Part shown: positions 921 to 40,237 of the stretch, piece by piece | How positions within the stretch are numbered: position 1 is the stretch's first letter | How the letters are laid out: the number at the start of each line of letters is the position of its first letter | From: Owenia fusiformis | Taxonomy: Eukaryota; Annelida; Polychaeta; Sabellida; Oweniidae | Direction of reading: 5' to 3' | DNA: 64,000 bases | Assembly: GCA_903813345.2 (NCBI GenBank) | Contig: CAIIXF020000012.1 | Location: 7,215,615-7,279,614, forward strand | Translations under genes and position numbers: made by a program | Notes under the pieces: generated by a model | Told to the model about the DNA's origin: nothing | Databases searched by the model: none | Seen by the model: the letters and a program-made list of their open reading frames with translations, nothing else

Positions 921-1375
921 CTAGGGAAAGAAAGCATCAGAACAATATGGTGCTCTACAATCTGCCTCAGAGGGGCAAAAGAAATCAGGTGGGTATCTAA
1001 AAGAACAGTCACACCATGATGAGTAGCAACAGGGAGCAGGTCCACATCCGGGAATGCAGCATTCATCACAACAAAATTCTCCAAACTCGTAGCAAGTGCT
1101 TTCACTATTCATACGACTGTAACAGCACCCAGGACCAGGTAAAGGATAACCATAGACATAGTCACGACTCTCGCTACTTTCACTGCTGCTGCTATCACAA
1201 CTGCTCTTCTTACTGCTGCTGCCGCTCTTACTGCTACTCTTACTGCTACTACTGCTACTGCTGCTGCTCTTACTGCTACTGCTGCTCTTACATTTGCTCT
1301 TACTTTTGCTCTTACTGCTACTGCTACTACTGCTATGCCTTTTCACTCTCAATAAGGTTGTATTGCCAGCATTTC
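921..1375 (-). CDS. Last exon of the BRICHOS gene: furin site, Ser/Lys tract, Cys-rich tail
   Basis: The acceptor is a T-rich run ending in TTTTTACAG just above 1375. The two leading bases complete a split Gly codon with exon 5. The exon encodes NAGNTTLLRVKR, then 58 residues (221-278) that are mostly Ser with spaced Lys, then about 80 residues (279-358) with 15 cysteines, including CC pairs, plus many Pro, Tyr, Gly and acidic residues. The stop is at 921-923. I do not recognise the tail. Many Cys and a Ser/Lys segment would suit an extracellular, cross-linked, matrix-like or antimicrobial product, but that is inference. No canonical AATAAA was found within 200 bp downstream. Confidence 0.7.
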
Positions 1376-4300
1376 CTGTAAAAATCATAATCATTCTTAT
1401 GAATTCATTTGACTTATTATCTTTTAAAGGCCCATTATGCGTATTTTCAACATTTTGTGGCAAAATGTAGACTTACTTTTGAACTTCATAGTATTTCCAA
1501 TGGATTGATACTTTCATTTGACACCAAAAATAGCTCAAACGGGCCACATCAAAGGTTACAATAAATTATCAAAGATAATAATTTTGATCTTTCAAATTTT
1601 ATATACCAAGTTTTGACCAATGTCAATGAAAGATGGTTAAGATGTCTGTATCACATGATTCATTCATTTTTGTGTCGCCATATTTTAAATCAATAGTTAT
1701 TTGAAAACATGCGTCTTTTCAAAATTGGGCATGCACAACTAAGGATCTCTGAGCTTTTGTCATCTCTATGAGTGCTTTTCCTCAGAAAATAGCCAAAATC
1801 CAACATATGCCTGTCAAAATCTGTTGCGATACTTTCTCCCCCCTTTGTATAGATATATCAAACTGGATTGCATAGTAACGCCGTCAGGTACTAGAAAAAT
1901 GCATATATGACGTGCACGGACCTGGGGACAATTCGGGAAATACGGGCTAATCTCAGCTTTAAGCGTTAATATCTGCCTTATTTAGCTTACAAAGCTAACT
2001 ATGTGTATTATATATCATTTTGAAGTATTTTTTATTCGCATTTCACTGAAATTATTTTTCCTTGAAAAGTATGATGGGGTCTACCATATTTTTTAAGTTA
2101 AATGTACTCCGACATCGTCAGATACGCTGTAAGACGTAACATTTCACGCTTACACGGTTCGTTGAAATCGGAATAACTTTTGAAATACTGATCAGAATTT
2201 TACTAAAATTTCACATTTTATTCATTGAAACATGTGCTTTTATGACGTCACAATTGCCTAGCGGCTACAGTTCAAATCGTCTTAAATGAACGCTTTTAAG
2301 ATTTTCAAAATTGTGTAAGGTTTTGAAGGCGAAGGAGACAAGCAATAAGTTTACCTTTATTTAACCTTCTAATCTAGGTCTGATTTCAAAAAAAATTTAA
2401 TTGCACAATATTGTCATGGCGAAATTTACAAAACAATAACCGATTTCTTTATTTTTCAAATAATAAGAGAATAAGAGTTGCTTTTAGAGACTTGAAAAAA
2501 TGTAACGCATCGATTTTTTACCACAAATCCCATACATATCAATTTTTACTAACGCCCCGAGTGGATTTCCTGACCGTTTTTCCAAAATCAAAAACATTTT
2601 AGAAATATTGTCCTCGAGATCTTCTTGCTCTGTGAATTTCACCAGGATTGAATAAGAATAAAGCATCTTATTTTTAGGTTGACTAAACTTGACAAAATGT
2701 AACGCTTGTCGTTTTTGACGTTATAATGCTGTATAACTATAACTGATCGCCTGATTTCCCTTTTAAAAAATTCAACCGTCTTTTCTCATTAAGATCAACA
2801 ATTCACTCACATGACACAAAATCAAAAAATGATTTGATTGTTCAACCATTTAGAACAGAATATGGAAGGAAATCAATTGGGACAAGTGGCCCATCAATTT
2901 ATAACTCTTTATCTACTGATTTGAGAAACTCAATTCATATAAAAATGTTTCAACGAAAGTTTAAGTCCAATTTGTTAAGTCATTATTAGTTAGTTTGAAC
3001 CATACTTCCACTATGTTACATCAAGATAATTAAAAATGTATGCTTTGTAAATTTGTACATTACAATAACTGTTCTAACATGACATGCTTTATGTATAACA
3101 CATTTTATTTTTTCAAAACATGGAATCCATACACCCCTCGGGGTGTCCTTTTCATATCACTTGTAAATTAATATTGTATGAAAACTAGAATTGAATAATA
3201 AATTGAATTGAATTGAAATTGAATTGTTATATGCTATATAATACTGATTGCGCCCTATACTGCCCATTGTATTGTTTTTGTATTTTGACGCCATAATGTT
3301 ACTCTAATTGTCCCCTGTTTCGTGCGACGTGTAATAGTATATTTTGGCTTTCTGAGGTTCATAATTCCATGTGAAGATAATGTTTTTGAAAAGTTTTGAA
3401 AAATATATAGTGTTTTCAATAATTTAATCTTTCATTTTTGGTGCTTCGACATTTCATATACTACAATCCCAACTTACCGCGTATATTATCATCCTTAGTA
3501 TCATCGCCATCTTTTCCATCATGTTGTACATCCTCAGTAACAGGGACAAGCCAGTGTATGGGAAATCCGGCACAGGCGTCCAGGACTTGCTCGCTTAGGA
3601 ATCCCCGATGATCGATTTCCTCTTTGGCCGGCTTATAGTGTGGCAGATTCCTATTACCATCTTTACCATGTGATGTAAATTTTTCTCCATCCTGAAGGAA
3701 ACATAATATAACCATGTGATGTAGACTTTTTTCTCCATTTCGAAAAAAACATAATGGAGCCAACAAAAAGTTCTAAAAAGCAAGCCCAGTGTCCTATTTA
3801 AGAACCCGTATTCTTACTATTGAAAATGGATATCTACTAATATTATTTCACAATAATCTACTTGTCCTTTGAGACATTCAAGCTTGACATAGGCTTTCGA
3901 AAATTTTGGTTGCTAATAAATAAGTAGACGGCGCTGATTGATTCGTTAGGAAATCCACAAACATAGTAAAGTAAAATTATATTTGATTTCGAACCTATCT
4001 ATCCACGAACGACTGTTTCAAATGGAGTAGCAAATCAACTTACAGGATGATGTTCCAAATAACTCTTCATTGCCTTTGGAGAAAGGACCCCTTTGTTGAG
4101 CTTGCTCAGGTAGCATACAAAGCTTGTGTTGAGACCAACTTTCAGCATTGTGAAACCCTGAAAATAGAAAGAAATATTTTGAACAACGCATTCACTGGGA
4201 GGTATCGTAATACAAAGACATGGTGTCTTTGTAACAAAATGGCCTGACTTCCGGAAACAAATTCCCGTACGATATTTTGTTATGTACATTTAATATTTTT

Positions 4301-6199
4301 TAGACGAGTTTCTATAAAATTGTATACGTGCATTTAGCGCATACTCTCTATGTTTAAAAATCTTATTAGTATTCATCCCGCATCATCAATAAGCAAGAAA
4401 TTCACCGTTCTTATTCCTCGCTTTTGACACAAAGACACCGTTCTGAAGATACAAAGACGTCGCTGTGTGTCTTCATAAATAAAACAAAAAATGAATGAAA
4501 CCAGCTGTCAAAGCGTCAAGGGGCGAAATGCGAATGATCTGAGACGCCTGGTGATGACTCAATGAAGGACTTTCACTTCACTGGTGTCATCGACCAGTTT
4601 GTTTTCCATTCAATTTGTAGCGGCGCTGATATGCTGCCAAGATTGTGGAAGGGAGTGTATTCGATCGTGATGTAACAATTGACGTAACTTATTTTTCTTA
4701 CCTTGCTAAAGTCATTGTACACAGAGTAGCCCTTTTCTTGATCGTCAAGCTCTGTCATGTTATTGTGAACGTCTATTTTCACAAGGGTTTTCTTTGCAAG
4801 CGCGAATTCCTAGAAAACAAAATAAGTATTGGCTGAATATTAGCAGAATATTTATAGGTAAGCTTAGAGCAATAGTAGATAGCAACATATAATTAATAAA
4901 TTGTTTTATTCTAAAATGCAAAGTAACAAGAAAAGGGTACATATACAGTTGTATATTGTTTTTAGGGGATGGAAACTATAAAATATTGGCAATCGTCATT
5001 TGTGCCTAAGTAGGGTTTAAATGGATTTATTTACCTTAATGGTGTCGCTACCAAAGCCTTTTGTGAATTTCAACGTTACAAGAATTGCGCCTAATGTGAC
5101 AACCACAATCAACACAACGGTCACTGCAGCTATGATATACTTCACGTTTGACTTGGCTGCAGGCTTCTCGTATTCCTAAAACAGAATTTGGGTAAATCAC
5201 TTGAAATTTACGCCGTAAAAACTGCATGATTATGAAATAATTGTTGGCCGGGGTGGTCTGGGTGGGGGGTCTCTCGAACCCCCTCTGGCTACGGGCCTGT
5301 ATTTGTCACAATGATGGATCTCCAAAAATCTTAAAAGAAATTCCCTTGGGGAAACTGAAGGGGTTCAGCACTTAGATATTAATAAAAAGCTTGTGAAACG
5401 TTTCCGCATATAGGTCTATATTTAATTTTATTTAATTAATTGCTGGAATTACACCTGAAAAAACGCTAAAAGCGCTTTAGTGAAGAGTGCTTTACAAAAT
5501 CGCCGTTCTGATTACACCAACATTTCTAAAGCGCCCTAGGAATTTTATTCTGAAGTTACACATGTCATTTATAAAACGCTTTCCGTGCACTTTAAACGAT
5601 GTTATGGAGAATAACCAGCAGATGTGTACATCTACAATAAATGTATTTTTTTAGCATCTAAGAGAAAGCATAACCGAGACTTTTGCCAGTGATGTGAACT
5701 TATTAAATTTTTGCGATATAATTTGATGACCTATTGCATTTTTGGGTCCCATCCATCATTTCCTGTATTTTTGCGGTGGCCCAAATGTGTAGCATCCTAC
5801 ATACATCTTATTTCGTTTAGGGCAAATGACAAAAACCCGGGTAAGTCGTTTTACAAAAGCCGATCGGTATTACACAACGGCACCGGGCTAAAACCTTAGG
5901 CGCCTTTTTAAAACGCATTTAAGACGTTTTTCGAAGGCTACACGTTTGGGCCACTGCAAAAATACATGAAAATGGATGGATGGGTCCCCAAAAAATGTAA
6001 TAGGTCATCAAATTATAAATAAACGATGACGTAATTAAACGCTTCATATAATGGGAATAATAAACATGCGAATCAATTCTTCTAATATCCATAAGTCTAA
6101 TTATTTCAAATAACATTAACACAAATAACAATAACACAATACAACATAGATTACCTGGAATACAATTGGTGGTGGTGGTGTTTTCTTTTTGGAGTCCAT
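921..6199 (-). CDS. BRICHOS-domain type II membrane proprotein with furin site and Ser/Cys-rich C-terminal product (6 exons)
   Basis: Exons read on the minus strand are 6199-6155, 5175-5035, 4809-4702, 4157-4044, 3691-3478 and 1375-921. All have AG acceptors and GT donors. Phases are 0,0,0,0,1, and the sum is 1077 nt, giving 358 residues plus TAG. Residues 1-27 are lysine- and proline-rich (KKKTPPPP), 28-50 are a hydrophobic span, and the positive side faces the cytosol, so it is type II. The BRICHOS domain covers about 70-186. Its family hallmarks are Asp95 in VYNDF, Cys113 in FVCYL and Cys176 in LDACAGFPIHWLV, which match the proSP-C and chondromodulin pattern, with Cys spacing 63. Sequons lie at N79, N108 and N212. 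An acidic stretch (187-206) precedes RVKR at 217-220, a furin consensus; in ITM2 and chondromodulin a C-terminal peptide is released this way. The last exon was assigned by phase and context, and it supplies the furin site the architecture needs. Without it the frame at exon 5 would end after GKLGL. The function of the released part is unknown. Confidence 0.8.
1164..1337 (-). repeat. Serine-codon microsatellite inside the coding exon
   Basis: A run of AGC/AGT codons interrupted by AAA/AAG makes an imperfect trinucleotide repeat that encodes the poly-Ser/Lys segment. Such tracts commonly vary in length between alleles. The open frame on the opposite strand (1016-1381), rich in Cys and Tyr, is only the complement of this repeat. 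Confidence 0.7.
1376..2789 (-). other. Intron 5 of the BRICHOS gene, unique AT-rich part
   Basis: I see no exon, RNA gene or repeat with recognisable ends here. Small open frames near 2411-2666 overlap one another on both strands and have no family features. Confidence 0.5.
2790..3226 (+). mobile_element. LINE 3' fragment (CR1/L2-like ORF2 tail) in intron 5
   Basis: From 2792 to the TAG at 2987-2989 the frame reads RSTIHSHDTKS, then a stretch with GRKSIGTSGPSIYNSLS, then FQRKFKSNLLSHY. This is the typical C-terminal end of CR1/L2/Daphne-type non-LTR ORF2 proteins. It is followed by a 3' UTR and a tail of TTGAA-type repeats (about 3190-3226). Everything 5' of the last roughly 65 codons is missing, as is usual for a 5'-truncated LINE insertion. 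It sits antisense to the host gene. Confidence 0.7.
5250..5300. repeat. Fragment of the 273-424 MITE family
   Basis: Reverse-complemented, the end at about 5281-5299 reads CAGGCCCGTAGCCAGAGGG, the same terminal sequence as the element at 273-424, next to a G-rich stretch. It lies in intron 1 of the BRICHOS gene. Confidence 0.5.
5718..6016. repeat. Foldback element in BRICHOS intron 1
   Basis: The left arm at 5718-5793 (ATAATTTGATGACCTATT, then GGGTCCCATCCATC, then GGCCCAAATGTGTAG) is repeated in inverse at about 5937-6016, around a loop of about 140 bp that contains weaker inverted matches. It is a MITE-like palindrome with no coding capacity. Confidence 0.65.
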
Positions 6200-27699: not shown

Positions 27700-30600
27700 T
27701 GACATTTTGTTGGGATGTCAACGATTGCATTTCCGCAAATGTCGATGTAGCTGAGAGAGAGAAAGGTTCACAATATGGCAAAGGAATGTACATTGGTGAC
27801 GAGAGAAACAATGTGACATTTTGTTGGGATGTCAACGATTGCATCTTCCACAGATGTTGTATTTGACATGTAATCGAATGATGTAGCCGAGGGAATGATA
27901 GGTTAACAATAAAGCAAAGGAGTGTACACTGACATTTTGTAGGGATGTCAACGATTCCATATTCCGCAAATGTTGTGTTTGGCATTTAATCGAATGATGT
28001 AGCTGAGGGAAGGATAGGTTAACATTAAGGCAAGGGAGTGTACACTGGTGACGAGAGAAACAATGTGTCATTTTGTAGGGATTTCAACGATTTCATATCC
28101 CGCAAATGTTGTGTTTGGCATTTAATCGAATGATGTAGCTGAGGGATGGATAGGTTAACATTAAGGCAAGGGAGTGTACAATGGTAACGAGAGAAACAAT
28201 GTGTCATTTTGTAGGGATGTCAACGATTGCATATTTCGCAAATGTTGTGTCTGGCATGTAATCGAATTATGTAGCTGATGGATGGATAGGTTAACATTAA
28301 GGCAAGGGAGTGTACACTGGTGACGAGAGAAACAATGTGTTATTTTATTGGGATGTCAACGATTGCATATTCTGCAAATGTTGTGTTTGGCATTTAATCG
28401 AATGATGTAGCTGAGGGATGGATAGGTTAACATTAGGGCAAGGGAGTTTACACTTGTGACGAGAGAAAAAATGTGGCATTTTGTTCGGATGTCAATGATT
28501 GCATATTCCGCAATATGTTGTGTTTGGCATATAATCATATGGTGTAGCTGAGGGATGGATAGGTTTACATTAAGGCAAGGGAGTGTACACTGGTGACGAG
28601 AGAAACAATGTGACATTTTGTTCGGATGTCAACGATTGCATATTCCGCAAATGTTGTGTTCGGCATGTAATCGAATGATGCACCTGAGGGATGGATAGGT
28701 TAACATTAAGGCAAGTGAGTGTACACTGGTGACGAGAGAAACAATGTGTTATTTTATTGGGATGTCAACGATTGCATATTCTGCAAATGTTGTGTTTGGC
28801 ATGTAATCGAATGATGTAGCTGAGGGATGGATAGGTTAACATTAAGGCAAGGGAGTGTACACTGGTGACGAGAGAAACAATGTGTTATTTTATTGGGATG
28901 TCAACGATTGCATATTCTGCAAATGTTGTGTTTGGCATTTAATCGAATGATGTAGCTGAGGGATGGATAGGTTAACATTAAGGCAAGGGAGTGTACACTG
29001 GTGACGAGAGAAACAATGTGTCATTTTATTGGGATGTCATCGAATGCATATTCCGCAAATGTTGTGTTTGGCATGTAATCGAATGATGTAGCTGAGGGAT
29101 GGATAGGTTAACATTAAGGCAAGGGAGTGTACACTGGTGACGAGAGAAACAATGTGTCATTTTATTGGGATGTCATCGAATGCATATTCCGCAAATGTTA
29201 TGTTTGGCATGTAATCGAATGATGTAGCTGAGGGATGGATAGGTTAACATTAAGGCAAGGGAGGGTACACTGGTGACGAGAGAAACAATGTGTCATTTTG
29301 TAGGGATGTCAACGATTGCATATTCCGCAAATGTTGTGTTTGGCATGTAATCGAGTGATGTAGCTGAGGGATGGATAGGTTAACATTAAGGCAAGGGAGG
29401 GTACACTGGTGACGAGAGAAACAATGTGTCATTTTATTGGGATGTCATCGAATGCATATTCCGCAAATGTTATGTTTGGCATGTAATCGAATGATGTAGC
29501 TGAGGGATGGATAGGTTAACATTAAGGCAAGGGAGGGTACACTGGTGACGAGAGAAACAATGTGTCATTTTGTAGGGATGTCAACGATTGCATATTCCGC
29601 AAATGTTGTGTTTGGCATGTAATCGAGTGATGTAGCTGAGGGATGGATAGGTTAACATTAAGGCAAGGGAGGGTACACTGGTGACGAGAGAAACAATGTG
29701 TCATTTTGTAGGGATGTCAACTAATGCATATTCCGCAAATGTTGTGTTTGGCATGTAATCGAGTGATGTAGCTGAGGGATGGATAGGTTAACATTAAGGC
29801 AAGGGAGGGTATACTGGTGACGAGAGAAACAATGTGTCATTTTGTAGGGATGTCAACGATTGCATATTCCGCAAATGTTGTGTTTGGCATGTTATCGAGT
29901 GATGTAGCTGAGGGATGGATAGGTTAACATTAAGGCAAGGGAGGGTACACTGGTGACGAGAGAAACAATGTGTCATTTTGTAGGGATGTCAACTAATGCA
30001 TATTCCGCAAATGTTGTGTTTGGCATGTAATCGAGTGATGTAGCTGAGGGATGGATAGGTTAACATTAAGGCAAGGGAGGGTACACTGGTGACGAGAGAA
30101 ACAATGTGTCATTTTGTAGGGATGTCAACGATTGCATATTCCGCAAATGTTGTGTTTGGCATGTAATCGAGTGATGTAGCTGAGGGATGGATAGGTTAAC
30201 ATTAAGGCAAGGGAGGGTACACTGGTGACGAGAGAAACAATGTGTCATTTTGTAGGGATGTCAACTAATGCATATTCCGCAAATGTTGTGTTTGGCATGT
30301 AATCGAGTGATGTAGCTGAGGGATGGATAGGTTAACATTAAGGCAAGGGAGGGTACACTGGTGACGAGAGAAACAATGTGTCATTTTGTAGGGATGTCAA
30401 CTAATGCATATTCCGCAAATGTTGTGTTTGGCATGTAATCGAGTGATGTAGCTGAGGGATGGATAGGTTAACATTAAGGCAAGGGAGGGTACACTGGTGA
30501 CGAGAGAAACAATGTGTCATTTTGTAGGGATGTCAACGATTGCATATTCCGCAAATGTTGTGTTTGGCATGTAATCGAGTGATGTAGCTGAGGGATGGAT

Positions 30601-31672
30601 AGGTTAACATTAAGGCAAGGGAGGGTACACTGGTGACGAGAGAAACAATGTGTCATTTTGTAGGGATGTCAACGATTGCATATTCCGCAAATGTTGTGTT
30701 TGGCATGTAATCGAATGATGTAGCTAAGGGAATGATAGGTTAACAATAAGGCAAAGGAGTGTACATTGACATTTTGTAGGGATGTCAACGAATGCATATT
30801 TCGCAAATGTTGTGTTTGACATGTAATCGAATGATGTAGCTGAGGGATGGATAGGTTAACATTAAGGCAAGGGAGGGTACACTGGTGACGAGAGAAACAA
30901 TGTGTCATTTTGTAGGGATGTCAACTAATGCATATTCCGCAAATGTTGTGTTTGGCATGTAATCGAGTGATGTAGCTGAGGGATGGATAGGTTAACATTA
31001 AGGCAAGGGAGGGTACACTGGTGACGAGAGAAACAATGTGTCATTTTGTAGGGATGTCAACGATTGCATATTCCGCAAATGTTGTGTTTGGCATGTAATC
31101 GAGTGATGTAGCTGAGGGATGGATAGGTTAACATTAAGGCAAGGGAGGGTACACTGGTGACGAGAGAAACAATGTGTCATTTTGTAGGGATGTCAACGAT
31201 TGCATATTCCGCAAATGTTGTGTTTGGCATGTAATCGAATGATGTAGCTAAGGGAATGATAGGTTAACAATAAGGCAAAGGAGTGTACATTGACATTTTG
31301 TAGGGATGTCAACGAATGCATATTTCGCAAATGTTGTGTTTGACATGTAATCGAATGATGTAGCTGAGGGATGGATAGGTTAACATTAAGGCAAGGGAGG
31401 GTACACTGGTGACGAGAGAAACAATGTGTCATTTTGTAGGGATGTCAACTAATGCATATTCCGCAAATGTTGTGTTTGGCATGTAATCGAGTGATGTAGC
31501 TGAGGGATGGATAGGTTAACATTAAGGCAAGGGAGGGTACACTGGTGACGAGAGAAACAATGTGTCATTTTGTAGGGATGTCAACGATTGCATATTCCGC
31601 AAATGTTGTGTTTGGCATGTAATCGAGTGATGTAGCTGAGGGATGGGTAGGTTAACAATAAGGCAATGGTGA
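27700..31672. repeat. 136-bp satellite array, about 29 copies, with higher-order structure
   Basis: The unit runs from GTGACGAGAGAAACAATGTG through GTCAACGATTGCATATTCCG and GATGTAGCTGAGGGATGGAT to GGCAAGGGAGGGTACACTG. At 29250-30250 the monomers pair into 272-bp dimers distinguished by CAACGATTGC against CAACTAATGC. From about 30474 a 524-bp block (four monomers, one lacking 20 bp) is repeated almost exactly at 30998. The left third is more diverged. The 60- and 79-codon minus-strand frames come from reading the monomer and are not genes. Confidence 0.93.
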
Positions 31673-32640
31673 GTACATTTCCCTTTTCATCCCGAAGAGT
31701 AAATATGATATTAGCAGTCGTAGTATGAGATTGCATATGCAGAGCGTCGGTCATATAGTTTCCATATAGCTTTTGAAGTCTCGCTTAATCTCGTTTTTTG
31801 TGAGATTTTAAGAGACTTGCATATTAGACCTCTATTGACTTACATTACCTTCTTTTAAATGGCATATTTGAATTCAGTGAAATGTTTTCTCCTATAATAG
31901 CTTTGATTTACACAGTTATGTAATTTGAATAATTTTCTATGACAATTTTAAAAAACTTGGGCCAAATGTCCATAGATGAAATGCTAAAATTCTTTAAACC
32001 CGTGGATTATTTGTATGTCAATCAACATTTGTATGCTTAATCACAACATGTGCATAAACAGGGTCATCATGTGGTATATCATTCAAGTTTTATACAGATT
32101 CAACTAACACACTTTGATAAATCATGAAATTAAGCCACTTTTCCAAGATTTTAGCATGTAAGTAAAGGGAACTCTAGCCCAAGTTAAAAGCTGAATAAAA
32201 GATGGCAGCACTAGATTTCATTGATTTTTCTGCTATTTAGAAACTATCCTAATACTTACTGGATAACTAGGCGACTCTTTTATGGTCTGATAGTTCAGCT
32301 CTTCAAAGTAAATATGTAAACGGACAACACTTTGCCTAAAAATCAAATGTAAATATCATGATCAAAAATAAATATAATATTAACATTGGCAACTCCATCC
32401 GATGTACCGTTTAATGCTTATTAGAAATAATCTAGAGAATTGAAAAAATTGATGAATGTAACATTATCTTCGAATTGAAAAAGGAAAATATCAAAATACG
32501 AGATTGAGTGATGGCTATATTGAAATGTTTGTTAAAGCAATGCATCTTACTACTAGTACTACATATTTTATAGTCGTATATTAGTACTATTATTGTAAAT
32601 GTATTGCAATCGATTTTGTGAGGAAACCAAGTGTTTGGTT
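31673..32640. other. Unique AT-rich stretch, nothing recognised
   Basis: No open frame of note, tandem repeat or inverted pair was found. Confidence 0.4.
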
Positions 32641-33575: not shown

Positions 33576-36340
33576 GCTTTTTGAAGTTTTTGAAGAACCG
33601 TATAATGGATACTAATAGTGATATATATATATATTTCTTTATTGCGACCATAATTGATCATCATAATATACATTATTTTATGTTAACATATATACAAACA
33701 TTTAGGTGAACAATACAAGGTCTGGATGATATTTACAAAATGGCGTTTGTTCGATGTTGGTACATCGCATATAAAGTATTAGCAATAAATATACAGTCAT
33801 CCTGCTCATCTGGAGCGAAGATTAAGGGCAATACGCCATCCCCATATTTGTCAATAAGGGGTTTTAATAATAATCGACGACTCTTAAGTTCAGTACAATC
33901 CTTTATAAAATGAATTAATGTTTCACACTCTCCACATAAAGGACACAATCTATTTTCTTTAGCTTCTGCATACCTCCCAATGGCTTCCCCCACCAGAAGC
34001 CGTACCATAAACTTACATTTGAAAATGAGATCAGGCCTAAATTTACATAATTGGTACCATATTATTGGAACTCGATTATTGACGACATCTCTGTACGTCT
34101 TAATCTTAGTATACATCATGCATTTTAGATGCCATCTATTTATGTAGTAATTGGATACTGCATTTTTAGAAATTTTCTTCCAATGATGCTTTTTGGGGAA
34201 AATACCTTGGTCGATATAGCTCTTCATTCTATCTAAGAGATTAAACCTTGTACCTAGTTTGATTATTTCAGCTATAGGCGATGACACTGACATCCCTACG
34301 ATAAATATTTTAAAAAGTAGGATGTACCATCGAGCAATACTCACAGCTTTACATTGACCAGCACAAGTGTTAAATATATGCCAAAAGAACATGAGTTTCT
34401 TCATTGCAATAACTTCACTGATGTCACACCAGCCTATCTGTGACAAGGATGCACAATCTGTTGTATGTTTTGGTAAACCTTGAATATGTTTAGCTGTTTG
34501 AGTATGGAAACGTTCTAGTTTACCCAGGCTGGAGTCATTGTATTCAAGAACCTCTGCTCCATAAAGAACTGTAGGAATTGACACTGCCCAGTACAGTTTG
34601 GAAGCTGATAGGGGGTTTACAGTACAATTTTCAGGAGTTATACAGTCGACTGTAGCATATAAATTCCTTCTACCTTTAGAAATACCATTCTCAATGTGGT
34701 AACCAATGTCTCTCTGTGTAACAGGGAGTCCTAAATGAACAAGTTCATTTACAATGGCAATGTTGTCTATACCGAAATTAAAAGGGAGTTGGTCTTTATT
34801 CCTCCCTTTAACAAAATGAACTGCAGAGCATTTTTTGGGATGAATTTGAAAACGCCACCTATTGGCGTAGTTATAAACTATATTTAACATTGATTGCATG
34901 GTATTTCTAAAAGACGAAATTAAAATGGTGTCATCTGCATAGGATGGAGCACAACATGACATCCCTCGTATAGCACAGCCTAGCCCAGAATTAACGAGCT
35001 CTTCCAATAAGGGATTCATGAATCGTACATATAATTCCATTGATAAAACCCCTCCCTGATGAACACCCTGACTTACAATAAATTTTTCACTACATTTACC
35101 CTTTACTCTGACACAACATTTATAACCTTCATACGTTTCAAGGATCATCTTCCATAATTTGCCATTTATACCCTGGTTATACAAAATGTACATTAAGCCA
35201 TTTAACCACACAGTATCAAAAGCTTTTTTCACATCAATAGCCAGAGCGTAAGCCTCAGACCCATTTTCTAATTGATTTGCAATAGTCTCCCTTAGTATTA
35301 ACGACGTGTCAAGACAAGAAGCGCCAGGCTGTGCAGCATACTGTAATTTGGATCGACAAAAATCACCACACAGTTTACTCCGTTCAAGTATTAATCTGTC
35401 TAGAATTTTGCTATACGAACACATGAGAGTAATACCCCTGTGGTTATCCTTGTCTAAGATATCCTTGTTATTACCCTTGTATAACGTAATTATGACACCA
35501 ATCTTTAAACTACATGGGACATACTCAAGTTTAAACATACAATTAAAAATCATAGTAAGGACCTCGATAAGGGTCTCACCACCATACCTTAAGTGCTCTG
35601 ATGAGATACCATCTATACCACATGCTTTATTACAATTTAAGGATTTAATAGCCATGGCCAGATCATTCTCAACAAAACATTCATTAAATGAGCCATCATT
35701 ATTTTCTGAATATCCACGCTTCATGAAGTCCATCATTGCATTAACATGTGCTTTAAAATCTGTGTCAAAACTATCACATTCCTTTGGAGTAAAAAGCTGA
35801 CTAAAATAATTAGACCATTCTTGCCTTACAGCATCTGGCTCTTGGAGTACTATACCGTGGTCATTTCTAATACAATTGGAATTTTTCCCAGATTTCTTGT
35901 GCCTATTGGCCAAAAACCAGTAGTACCTTGCATCTATATCTTGACTTTCATCAATATCTTTCTGACAATTAATATTATATTCTACCTCAGCCTGTCTCAA
36001 GGCACGTCTAAATGCTCTTTTGGCATCTTTGTATCTTAACCAAAAAATATTGTTACCACGATGCATACCACTTTTTTTCCACTCTGACCACATTTTATTC
36101 TTTGCTTTCATAAGGTCTTTAATGCTAGAATTCCAATAAGGTTTAAGTCTCTTGTTATATTTCCTTTTGGGAATTCTATCATTAGAAACAGATTTAAGGA
36201 TATCCGTAACCTGGTTTAACACGGAATCTATATACTCTTTACTGACGTCACAATCTAAAATTTTATTCTCGAGGTTAATCTTAATGTCCGCAAGACCCTG
36301 ACTTACACCCTTGGTAGAAACGCAAGGAGCTAAGCCAAGG
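33576..36340 (-). mobile_element. 5'-truncated LINE (non-LTR retrotransposon) inserted antisense
   Basis: One open frame of 876 codons (36363-33733, the first residues probably from flanking sequence) encodes a connector (KPYWNSSIKDLMKAKNKMW), then a non-LTR reverse transcriptase and a C-terminal zinc-binding motif. The RT motifs are NKACGIDGISSEHLRYGG, DKDNHRGITL, ALAIDVKKAFDTVW, SQGVHQGGVLS and SYADDTILI (catalytic Asp pair). The zinc motif is CPLCGECETLIHFIKDC. The apurinic-type endonuclease that normally comes first is missing, so it is 5'-truncated. The 3' end has AATAAAG followed by an AT dinucleotide tail (about 33625-33640). The RT frame has no stop, so insertion looks recent. The clade was not determined; a target duplication was not found. 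Confidence 0.85.
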
Positions 36341-37447
36341 TGTTGCAGCACTTGTGGTAACACGGTCAGGGGACATAACGGACCGTATGGCCCGAAATGT
36401 ACGAATTATCAGACAGAGGGAAACGCCCAGTCAAAAATTGAAACACCAGATTCGACTGACACGTCATCAGGGATCGTAAGTGATAATCAACCATCAGCGT
36501 CTTGGATAACTAATGCAATAATGACAATGAATGACCAAATTTCGAACCTATCAATGGTAACATCAAATCTGAAAGAAGGTCAGGATAACCTTCGTGAATT
36601 AATGGAAGGTATAATACAACAGCGTAACCTCCCTGACCCTAATATGGGGGTTGTTCCACCAGTACAAGGAGCCACAGCACAAAATGCACCTCAACAATCC
36701 AACCCAACCCCTGATACAATTCCACCAGTGAACGATAATAGGGTTTCCTACGAAGGCTGTACAATGGGGGTGCCAGTTAAAGTTACCAATAAAATAATTG
36801 CTGGTGAGTACGTGAATTTGGTGGATTTGCTCCCAACAAACCTATATCATCAATCAGTTGACAATCAATGGCAAAATGAACAAGTATTATGTTCGGATAA
36901 CGGTCAACTCAAATTACAAAAGAAAAACAAACAAACACAAGTACAATCATTTTTATCATGGAATACAGCATGGAATGTCTATGAAATGATTATTATGGAG
37001 CACAACCCCAGCGCCTATTCTGATCTGAGAACATATAGAGCACACATTCAGGAATGCGACAAGAAATTCCAATGGTCAGCTGTATCACAATATGACATCC
37101 GTTCTAGACTGAAATTAGGGGCCGCAAAATCATTTGCGTTTGGTAATTTGGATACATTCTTATATACCACTATATTAGACGCATCTGCAGTCAAACATGT
37201 TGCCATTAAGTGTTACAGGTGTAAAGGAGATCATCAAGTGTCTAAATGCCCATTTCTCGAGACGAATAAGGTGGAGACGGCGGAGAAAAATGAGAAACCG
37301 AAAGGCACAGGAAATATTAGTGGAGAAATTTGTAACAAATTCCAAACTGGAGAATGTACCTTCGGAAATCGTTGTTTTAGAAAACACGTCTGCAAAAATT
37401 GCAAAGTTGGCCTGTTGCCATACGCCAAATGTGATTGTTCAAAGTAA
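36341..37447 (+). CDS. Gag-like ORF of the fossil Ngaro-type element
   Basis: Starts with a Cys/His cluster (CSTCG with RGHNGPYGPKC) typical of the first ORF in this group. It continues through a Gln/Pro/Asn-rich linker, and ends with a CCHC knuckle (CYRCKGDHQVSKC) and a C3H1-type finger. It is presumed to encode the nucleic-acid-binding structural protein. Its upstream end lies at the LINE junction. Confidence 0.7.
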   Translation, partial: CCSTCGNTVRGHNGPYGPKCTNYQTEGNAQSKIETPDSTDTSSGIVSDNQPSASWITNAIMTMNDQISNLSMVTSNLKEGQDNLRELMEGIIQQRNLPDPNMGVVPPVQGATAQNAPQQSNPTPDTIPPVNDNRVSYEGCTMGVPVKVTNKIIAGEYVNLVDLLPTNLYHQSVDNQWQNEQVLCSDNGQLKLQKKNKQTQVQSFLSWNTAWNVYEMIIMEHNPSAYSDLRTYRAHIQECDKKFQWSAVSQYDIRSRLKLGAAKSFAFGNLDTFLYTTILDASAVKHVAIKCYRCKGDHQVSKCPFLETNKVETAEKNEKPKGTGNISGEICNKFQTGECTFGNRCFRKHVCKNCKVGLLPYAKCDCSK

Positions 37448-37449
37448 AA

Positions 37450-39062
37450 CAGAGATAAGTCCCTATAATCCTTTGAATGTTATATATTTCGAAAATAAGT
37501 TGAAATCTCATCCTGATCGTGAATTTGTAAATAATATAATACAGGGTGGTACATTTGGAGTTAATCTTGGCTACACAGGACCTCGGGGTCCAAGAATTCA
37601 TAAAAATTGGAAATCAACACAAACATATAGTGAAGCCGTGGAGGCTAATATACTCAATGATTTGAAAATAGGTCGTAAAGCAGGACCGTTTATCACACAA
37701 CCGTTCTCTAATTTTGTCGGCTCTCCGATGGGCGCATACGCTAAAAAGCGCTCGGTTCCTGTAAAGTACAGGATTATACATGATTTGTCATGGCCTCCAG
37801 GTGGCGCTATAAACGATTTTATCTCAAAAGAAGATTATTCGTGCTCATATGTATCGGTTGACAACGCTATAACCCTAATTAAAGCCCATGGGCGTGGTAG
37901 TTTGATGAGTAAAATCGACCTAGCAGACGCTTTTAAACATATTCCAGTGAGACAAGCTGACTGAGAACTATTAGGTACGACATGGGAAATGATCGATATG
38001 GATAGCGGTGATACAGTAATGGTGTATATAGTAGATTTAGTTTTGCCGTTCGGTTCCAGAAGTTCACCTAGAATATTCTCAGATTTCGCGGACGCTCTAC
38101 AATATATTATGATAAACAATGGCGTTAGTTCGTGTATACATTACTTGGATGATTATTTTACGTGTGGACCCCCTGAATCTGATATGTGTAATAACAATTT
38201 GAATATTATGTTAGAAACATGTGAAGATGCCGGTTTCACAGTTAACAAAAAGAAAACTATTTTACCAACATCGAAGTTAGAGTTTCTGGGAATCGAGATA
38301 GACTCGGAAGTTCTCGAAATGAGGATTACAAATAACAGATTGGTGGACATTTTAGATGAGCTTAAAGCGTGGCGATATCGTCAAAAAGCGTCGAAAAGAG
38401 ATATCCTGTCTTTGATAGGAAAACTTAACTTTATATGTAGACTAGTGCGCAGTGGTAGAACGTTTCTACGAAGAATGATCGATCTATCTACTTCAGCGAA
38501 ATACCTGCATCATAAAATTAAACTGAATAAATCGTTCAGATCTGATATTCAATGGTGGCTGTATTATCTCCCAAGATGGAATGGGATTTCCGTATTCTAC
38601 GAAGATCAATGGACCACGAACACACAGTTAAAGCTATTTACAGACGCATCTGAAAAATCCTATGGAGCATATTTCCAAGGAGATTGGCTTAAAGGATCGT
38701 TCGCCAAGGAAGATTCCCATCAAAATATCACATGGAAAGAACTTTACGCCATTGTTGTAGCAATAGCTACTTGGGGAAAACAGCTTTGCCAGAAAAGGAT
38801 TATAATCAGATGTGATAACGAAGCCATAGTACATGTGGTAAACTCAGGAACAAGCAGAAATAAACACTTAATGTCACTAGTCAGAGCCTTATTCTTCTAT
38901 TGTGCCTCAGTCCAATGCGAATGTAGATGCGTGCATATAGAGGGACAGAAGAATATATTAGCCGATGCGTTAAGTAGAGACCAAATGGACAAGTTTTATA
39001 AGTTCGTGTCATCAAACGATACGAGGCAATGGGAACCAGTAAATATTAAAGTATTTTACTGA
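37450..39062 (+). CDS. Reverse transcriptase/RNase H region of the fossil Ngaro-type element
   Basis: RT motifs of the DIRS group (a KYRIIHDLS block, a YLDD-type active site) are followed by an RNase H-like domain (FTDASEKSYGAYF, then CDNEAIVHVVNSG and NILADALSRD). The region is broken about once and is treated here only as a relic. Confidence 0.8.
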
Positions 39063-39280
39063 ATACAAATCATAATAACAAAAGCTTACCATAGTATTTT
39101 ATCATATCATATATACCAGTCACTTTTAGATTGAAACAAAAATTCAATCGAATTTCACTGTACGCCATCAGGCAATATAAACGAGTATTGTGGAATGTAT
39201 GCTCATATTTGTAAATAGTTATTTTTATACATATGTTGAGATAAACTAGTTATTCGTATTAATGTTAATAAATATTTATT

Positions 39281-40237
39281 TTGTCAGGGTCTTTGGACTG
39301 TCAGGAACTAAAGAAAACGGCTCAAGCTTTGGTAAGAAGAGGATTACGTCCTGCCACTAGAAAGACATATTCATCAGGTCAAAAATTTTTCATGGAATTT
39401 TGTGATAAAGCCAATTTAGAATGTCTTCCAGCATCAGAAGAATGTCTTTTAATGTACATAGCATATTCTTATGAAAAGAAACTAAGGCATGGCACAATCC
39501 TCAATTACTTATATGCAGTGAGATCCATGCACCTTGAGCACGGGTTCAATGATCCTTTAGAAAAATCTTTTAAAATAAAAAGAGCACTACAAGCTGTTTT
39601 AATAGAACAAAATAATTCAGGAGATAGCGTTAATCAAAAAGATGCTATTACAGCTGATGTACTTTTTCAATTATTTCAAATACATGATTTTAACAGCATA
39701 GATCAACTGATGTATTTTACTGCATTATCAATTGCATTTTTTGGACTTTTACGATGCTCTGAATTGATAAATCTGACATTAGATGATATAAGTGTAGTAA
39801 GAGATGAAAATTGTGAGTCAGACAAACATATGGTAGTCAAAATACGAATTTCAAAAACAGACCCAATTGGGAAAGGTCTAGAAGCAGTTATAGCATGCAC
39901 AAAGCAACCTATGTGTGCGGTGTGTTCTACTGAAATGTACATTAGTCGTCGTAGGTCAGATTCAAATGCACTTTTTGTTCTGAGTAATGGACAACCAATA
40001 GATAGAAAATGTTTCATATCCCATCTTAAGGTCTCCATGGCAGTTTTAGGGTATAACCCAGCAAAATTCTCTGGTCATTCTCTTCGTAGCGGGGGAGCGA
40101 CCACAGGGGGTAATGTAGGCCTTAAAGATTGGGAAATAAAAGCTATCGGTAGATGGAAAAGTCAATGTTATCAGAGATACATTAGAATACCCAAGGAAAC
40201 CCTTTGCAAATTATCGGCAAAATTGACAGAACATTAA
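39281..40237 (+). CDS. Tyrosine recombinase ORF of the fossil Ngaro-type element
   Basis: About 318 codons. Phage-integrase-like fold with an N-terminal SAM-like half and a C-terminal catalytic half. The first Arg is in GLLRCSELINL, the HxxR box in GHSLRSGGAT, and the last Tyr in a block beginning IGRWKSQCYQ. It lies downstream of RT/RNase H, the order found in DIRS and Ngaro elements, and would act on the split repeats. Confidence 0.82.
   Translation: MSGSLDCQELKKTAQALVRRGLRPATRKTYSSGQKFFMEFCDKANLECLPASEECLLMYIAYSYEKKLRHGTILNYLYAVRSMHLEHGFNDPLEKSFKIKRALQAVLIEQNNSGDSVNQKDAITADVLFQLFQIHDFNSIDQLMYFTALSIAFFGLLRCSELINLTLDDISVVRDENCESDKHMVVKIRISKTDPIGKGLEAVIACTKQPMCAVCSTEMYISRRRSDSNALFVLSNGQPIDRKCFISHLKVSMAVLGYNPAKFSGHSLRSGGATTGGNVGLKDWEIKAIGRWKSQCYQRYIRIPKETLCKLSAKLTEH

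Follow-up and report, generated by a model that had tools for sequence, protein, structure and literature searches.

The window, the whole 64,000-nucleotide stretch of DNA analysed here (G000:C12:7215615-7279614, from a genome of 498 Mb), carries on its minus strand a gene of six exons that runs from 6199 to 921. The introns have GT...AG borders, the junction phases are 0, 0, 0, 0 and 1, and the joined reading frame yields a product of 358 aa ending in TAG, with no stop or frameshift within the 358 codons. The features of the gene, with positions counted in the window and residues in the product, are listed below; L035 and L036 are two related loci elsewhere in the genome.

6155..6199, minus strand: exon 1, start codon and a Lys/Pro-rich N-terminus (residues 1-15), presumed to be cytosolic
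5035..5175, minus strand: exon 2, residues 16-62, with the membrane span and the start of the linker
5071..5139, minus strand: membrane span, residues 28-50 approximately, Kyte-Doolittle 19-residue mean up to 3.06
4702..4809, minus strand: exon 3, linker followed by the start of the BRICHOS domain including Asp95
4044..4157, minus strand: exon 4, BRICHOS domain including Cys113
3478..3691, minus strand: exon 5, end of the BRICHOS domain including Cys176, then an acidic spacer; the exon ends in phase 1
921..1375, minus strand: exon 6, carrying the sequon, the cleavage site, the Ser/Lys tract and the Cys-rich tail with the stop codon
1356..1364, minus strand: sequon Asn212-Thr-Thr (NVT in L036, NAS in L035)
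1338..1349, minus strand: RVKR, a furin-type site at residues 217-220 (R-x-K-R also in L035 and L036)
1164..1337, minus strand: Ser/Lys tract, residues 221-278, 58 aa with a net charge of +8
924..1163, minus strand: Cys-rich C-terminal 80 residues (279-358) with 15 Cys
1011..1124, minus strand: conserved core, residues 292-329, with 10 Cys invariant in three of three genes

All six exons of the original prediction were found where it had placed them, bordered by GT/AG and joining in frame to 358 aa, and the join of exon 5 to position 1375 that it had proposed is backed by a phase-1 exon 5-6 junction across the family. The single membrane span likewise held: the top Kyte-Doolittle 19-residue window (residues 29-47, mean 3.06) lies in the sole hydrophobic stretch, and windows above 1.6 start only at residues 21-38. 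Exon 2, which encodes this span, has full-length matches in relatives at 38-78% identity. Asp95, Cys113 and Cys176, put forward as BRICHOS hallmarks, could all be read from the 358-aa product, as could RVKR at 217-220, the 138-aa tail, its 58-residue Ser/Lys tract and the 15 Cys of the C-terminal 80 residues. Exon matches at relatives, the R-x-K-R motif and Cys core shared with L035 and L036, a core pN/pS of 0.24-0.45 and the phase-1 junctions speak against a chance arrangement. At the level of the sequence, the six-exon gene model is thus confirmed.

The predicted BRICHOS domain was recovered by a Pfam profile search on the six-exon product, with a match over residues 92-183 whose score of 33 bits exceeds the cut-off of 25 (E 6.9e-8). 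Seven further Pfam families appeared among the matches listed, all under their own cut-offs; the best of them, the surfactant protein C propeptide (E 0.014), fell on the membrane span. One Asp and two Cys are described as kept throughout the BRICHOS superfamily in the excerpted text of the papers (PMC2751770, PMC10182729), and Asp95, Cys113 and Cys176 correspond to them, Asp95 by position only. The exon-5 Cys was invariant in all 15 aligned rows. A PDB sequence search with the propiece revealed no significant relative (best E 0.38). BRICHOS domains are thought to maintain the solubility of segments that tend to aggregate within the proprotein they belong to (PMC10745061, PMC9410094, PMC6265681; excerpts).

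The tail (residues 221-358, 138 aa) contains 17 Cys. Its Ser tract is a low-complexity, AGY-rich tandem repeat in which 40 of the 58 codons are AGC or AGT. Genome searches with two versions of the core gave matches at the window gene, L035 and L036 only, and in these three genes the core comprises 37-38 residues with the pattern CYSR...C...CC..CC.PGCG..PCCYS..C. The sequon sits five residues upstream of R-x-K-R in each of them. The arms differ by gene, being Ser/Lys in the window gene, Ser/His/Lys in L035 (27 His) and Ser/Gly in L036, while the Ser content persists at 35-40% of the tail. Net charge (K+R-D-E) is 0 in the window tail, +11 in L035 and +2 in L036. A net charge of 0 indicates that the window tail is not a classic cationic antimicrobial peptide, and with 138 aa it also departs from the short cationic mature peptide of such precursors. 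No significant relative of the tail was found in Pfam; the best PDB hit to the tail had an E of 0.77, and a profile built from the three cores had no PDB match. Structure prediction for the last 80 residues alone was uninformative (mean pLDDT 41.5).

With three protein queries, the genome searches revealed no fewer than 19 such BRICHOS loci, counting the window gene. Besides the window gene, single loci lie at C4:55k, C4:15.557M, C12:30.575M, C3:21.395M and C7:7.010M. The other 13 of the 19 form same-strand clusters of two or three, each within about 45 kb (C1:7.535M/7.547M/7.554M; C1:47.044M/47.084M; C10:8.537M/8.546M; C7:22.607M/22.617M/22.651M; C5:8.422M/8.432M/8.449M); the protein queries matched the C5 loci weakly (E 0.22-0.44). 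Exons 2-5 were all matched at 7 of the 14 loci that had exon matches, and in part at the other 7. When exons 4 and 5 of six relatives were searched against Pfam, with exon 3 left out, all six matched BRICHOS, three of them over the cut-off of 25 bits (L053 45.8, L047 42, L044 30.6) and three under it (L037 24.5, L042 22.6, L035 20.6). The Pfam BRICHOS model applied exon by exon across the genome matched none of the 19 loci; its sole match, at C4:82079-82207, is an exon that we take to be ITM2-like and that belongs to a locus separate from the window gene.

A tail sequence was obtained at 15 of the 19 loci; at L038, L040, L041 and L046 none could be assigned confidently. All 15 tails follow an R-x-[KR]-R motif, and they fall into five classes:

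class a (window gene, L035, L036): sequon, R-x-K-R, Ser-rich arm and 10-Cys core
class b (L042-L045): Cys hairpins after R-F-K-R or R-V-R-R
class c (L037, L039): short Cys-rich tails
class d (L047, L048, L052): 'AAGWP...' tails with many Cys
class e (L053-L055): acidic Cys-rich tails

The hairpins of class b appear similar to arenicin or tachyplesin. When donor and acceptor were picked by score with phase ignored, the top-scoring exon-5 donor and the tail acceptor were both phase 1 in 13 of the 15 loci, the window gene among them. The exceptions were L042, whose best acceptor is phase 2, and L048, which had no acceptor in the open frame; L053, L054 and L055 have weak exon-5 donors. In another set of joins, the acceptors of 11 of 13 relatives had been preselected as phase 1 (none for L047 and L048), and phase-1 joins resulted in 9 of the 13, often with several possible donors; since the acceptors were chosen as phase 1, these joins are no test of phase.

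A tree of exons 4 and 5 from 17 of the 19 loci (without L046 and L055), built from a short alignment and rooted at the midpoint, grouped the window gene with L035 and L036 at a support of 93/97, slightly under the strict mark of the program, which also warned of long branches meeting. The hairpin genes L042-L045 formed a starred group (99/95), and the class a genes share a starred group of 12 rows with them. Apart from its two sisters, the rows closest to the window gene by path were L037, L040 and L041; the hairpin genes lay further away.

Among the three genes of class a, pN/pS was 0.32-0.33 for BRICHOS exons 3-5 and 0.42, 0.24 and 0.45 for the tail core, values that show constraint on the core but not its exact strength, given its length of only 37 codons and an almost saturated synonymous change. 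The 95% bootstrap upper bounds for the core (0.77, 0.47 and 0.96) stayed below 1 in all three pairs, as calculated from the resamples with a finite, non-zero dS (448, 67 and 500 of 500). The codon comparison thus indicates that the tail core is under purifying selection.

The host is very probably an annelid because its genome holds erythrocruorin-linker matches: the Pfam family Eryth_link_C, which is not known outside annelids, gave three matches over its cut-off, of which the best had an E of 5.0e-7 and one contained an internal stop. A search for COX1 gave no match. In annelids, BRICHOS precursors are cleaved at a dibasic site, probably by furin-like proteases, to free antimicrobial peptides from their C-terminus, according to excerpts of three papers (PMC10745061, PMC9410094, PMC6265681). 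Arenicin, alvinellacin, capitellacin, abarenicin and UuBRI-21 derive from such precursors, treated in the excerpts as an 'AMP' BRICHOS family (PMC9627735). The window gene shares with these precursors the BRICHOS propiece, the furin-type site and the C-terminal effector. Preproalvinellacin, as excerpted, has five introns and carries its peptide in the last exon (PMC5431198), and the window gene shows the same intron number and the same place of the effector, the two properties that were compared. It starts with a membrane span rather than a signal peptide, as do furin-type BRICHOS antimicrobial precursors of spoon worms (PMC9410094; excerpt) and 5 of the 13 BRICHOS precursors of Heteromastus (PMC10745061; excerpt). 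The effector is where it differs: annelid antimicrobial precursors release a short cationic peptide, whereas that of the window gene is Ser-rich, with 138 aa, 17 Cys and a net charge of 0.

The original prediction had been aware of no described BRICHOS family with such a tail. This stood in part. Cys-rich BRICHOS tails are in print, among them the 11-Cys tails of HfBRI-75 and HfBRI-91 from Heteromastus filiformis, which have no pronounced cationic character and whose function is unknown, and the Cys-rich tails of AmIMP1/2 from Arenicola marina; all four were compared with the window gene by their description in the excerpted text (PMC10745061). The combination of a Ser/Lys-rich tract and a 10-Cys core did not appear in the titles, abstract openings and excerpts that the literature search covered, and a search pairing Owenia with BRICHOS returned no paper. 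Moreover, the window tail has 17 Cys and a Ser/Lys tract, whereas the excerpted text gives HfBRI-75 and HfBRI-91 11 Cys, mentions no such tract and does not place them among the five precursors that it names as transmembrane (PMC10745061). Since HfBRI-75 and HfBRI-91 are counted in without a pronounced cationic character, a short cationic peptide is no strict criterion of the family. The window gene thus represents a new tail class within the known annelid BRICHOS antimicrobial-precursor family.

Two other BRICHOS systems resemble the window gene in plan. ITM2/Bri is a type II membrane BRICHOS protein whose C-terminal peptide is freed by furin; it shares the type II plan, but the ITM2-like exon of this genome lies at the other locus, C4:82079-82207. 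Chondromodulin carries a basic site, and neither chondromodulin-1 (LECT1) nor tenomodulin is known to have a Ser tract. Like the window gene, LECT1 and tenomodulin combine a membrane span, a BRICHOS domain and conserved C-terminal Cys, but by their description in the excerpt LECT1, TNMD and group C have four strictly conserved Cys close to their C-terminal end (PMC2751770), compared to ten in the core of the window gene.

Taken together, we propose, with a probability of roughly 55%, that the product of the window gene is a type II membrane proprotein and a member of the annelid BRICHOS antimicrobial-precursor family, and that its effector, a new class with a Ser/Lys-rich arm and a 10-Cys core, is released extracellularly and serves host defence. 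In the ER, the BRICHOS domain would shield the Cys-rich tail until its disulfides have formed. A furin-like convertase would cut at the putative site after Arg220, the 138-residue tail would be freed outside the cell, and it might then protect the host, possibly by attaching to microbial surfaces via the Ser/Lys arm and the rigid core. The predicted architecture of a type II BRICHOS proprotein with a furin-type site and a tail is borne out by the profile match and by a site and core kept in two relatives; that the tail is the client of the domain and is released is what we infer. Matrix, adhesive and defence products had all been considered in the original prediction, and defence appears to be the best of the three because the window gene belongs to a multigene family and is kin to genes ending in antimicrobial-like hairpin tails. 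Judged from sequence, a defence role of the tail is likely. Counting against it are the net charge of 0, a length of 138 aa that is long for an antimicrobial peptide, and the position of L037, L040 and L041, rather than the hairpin genes, as nearest rows in the tree. As the short cationic feature is lacking, we do not claim that the tail is an antimicrobial peptide.

The length of the tail, its richness in Ser and its lack of an overall cationic character mean that a structural role has to be taken seriously. The freed tail could be an extracellular structural, mucus or adhesive protein in which phosphate or sugar groups modify the Ser tract and the Cys core forms cross-links, while the BRICHOS domain prevents premature aggregation. 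Annelid tube cements contain poly-Ser proteins, the three tails keep 35-40% Ser though their arm sequences differ, and net charge is near zero in two of the three. Yet only three copies of the core were found, in a family that has antimicrobial-like members, and among the literature matches listed for BRICHOS, adhesive, tube and annelid the only BRICHOS paper is the antimicrobial one (PMC10745061). We regard the structural role as possible rather than probable, and as the main rival to defence. A furin-released signalling fragment of the chondromodulin/tenomodulin kind, acting on the animal's own tissues, is unlikely: the order of parts is the same, with span, BRICHOS domain, basic site and Cys-containing C-terminus, but the tail has no significant relative in Pfam or PDB and carries 10 conserved Cys with CC pairs instead of four (PMC2751770; excerpt).

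Slightly less likely still is a metallothionein-like tail that binds metal for storage or sequestration outside the cell. Ten invariant Cys within 37-38 residues and the 27 His of the L035 arm would suit such a function, but the membrane span, the sequon and the furin-type site suggest passage through the secretory pathway, in which the Cys would be expected to form disulfides, and no metallothionein family was among the Pfam matches listed. It is very improbable that exon 6 lies outside the gene or that the gene is a decaying copy. Intron 5 is indeed long (2102 nt, compared to candidates of 327-455 nt in L035 and L036), and the Ser tract is built of AGY-rich tandem repeats. However, the 358 codons are intact, the sequon, cleavage site and core are kept in two relatives, the 95% bounds of pN/pS lie below 1 in three pairs, and the phase-1 junction holds across the family.

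Returning to the preferred reading of a BRICHOS-chaperoned, released effector, the five tail classes suggest a wider arrangement, to which we give about even odds: a conserved cassette of exons 1-5 (anchor, BRICHOS domain and acidic spacer) would be coupled to at least five dissimilar classes of last-exon effectors behind a furin-type site, including Ser-rich, non-cationic proteins with a 10-Cys core. BRICHOS would then serve Cys-rich secreted effectors in general as an export chaperone, and the last exon would be the fast-diversifying part. BRICHOS has mainly been studied as an anti-amyloid chaperone, with a beta-prone segment thought to be the natural client. A family with dissimilar tails in one genome offers natural chaperone-client pairs with which BRICHOS recognition can be probed, from hairpins to Cys-rich cores and others, and the new class of putative secreted Cys-rich proteins provides candidates for defence assays. 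According to the excerpted text, scanning for the chaperone finds effectors that are missed by antimicrobial-peptide similarity searches (PMC10745061), and the family of the window gene agrees with this point.

Duplicated pieces of exons recurred in the genes that share the Cys-rich tail class, namely the six-exon BRICHOS proprotein gene of the window and its two sister loci in the same genome, L035 and L036 (exons are numbered as in the window gene):

L035:2801-7111 (G000:C4:50.3-54.6k), array of half-copies of exon 4, period about 100 bp
L036:4002-4622 and 5451-5734, head-to-tail arrangement of partial exon-2 and exon-4 copies in this sister gene
Window 3665-3755, 48-bp imperfect repeat (1.9 copies), which places a duplicate of the beginning of exon 5 ahead of the exon-5 acceptor

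In L035, the splice acceptor of exon 4 together with its first 22 codons was repeated upstream of the true exon 4 in at least 38 half-copies. Among the half-copies sharing one exact end pattern, to which this count is confined, all 26 ran into an in-frame TGA or TAA without reaching a splice donor. This arrangement is either a minisatellite or a series of decoy (poison) half-exons. The exon-4 unit of L036 was similar to that of L035, and the duplicated start of exon 5 in the window gene followed the same habit as the exon copies in both sister loci.

Elsewhere in the BRICHOS-precursor family, two more classes of Cys-rich tails were observed (L047/L048/L052 and L053-L055); a Pfam search with one tail per class returned nothing over the cut-off for either. 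Judging from sequence, four further loci, L042-L045, encode candidate hairpin antimicrobial peptides, each following R-x-K-R or R-x-R-R. These genes lie as two pairs of adjacent loci, and their hairpins appear similar to arenicin/tachyplesin.

A whole-genome search with the Pfam BRICHOS model matched one place only:

G000:C4:82079-82207, BRICHOS exon (L001/L049), separate from the family of at least 19 loci

We take this exon to be ITM2/Bri-like.

The window also carries the following features:

27933-31677, tandem array of a unit of about 136 bp, nearly 4 kb
33736-36405, minus strand, 890-codon open frame with a reverse transcriptase domain
36302-40234, plus strand, adjoining frames that match reverse transcriptase/RNase H and tyrosine recombinase (phage integrase family) above the cut-off

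The tandem array exhibited a strong GC skew of about 0.4 throughout. The minus-strand frame is apparently a retroelement. Because the plus-strand frames combine reverse transcriptase/RNase H and tyrosine-recombinase matches with a CCCH-finger match under the cut-off, they suggest a DIRS-like retrotransposon.
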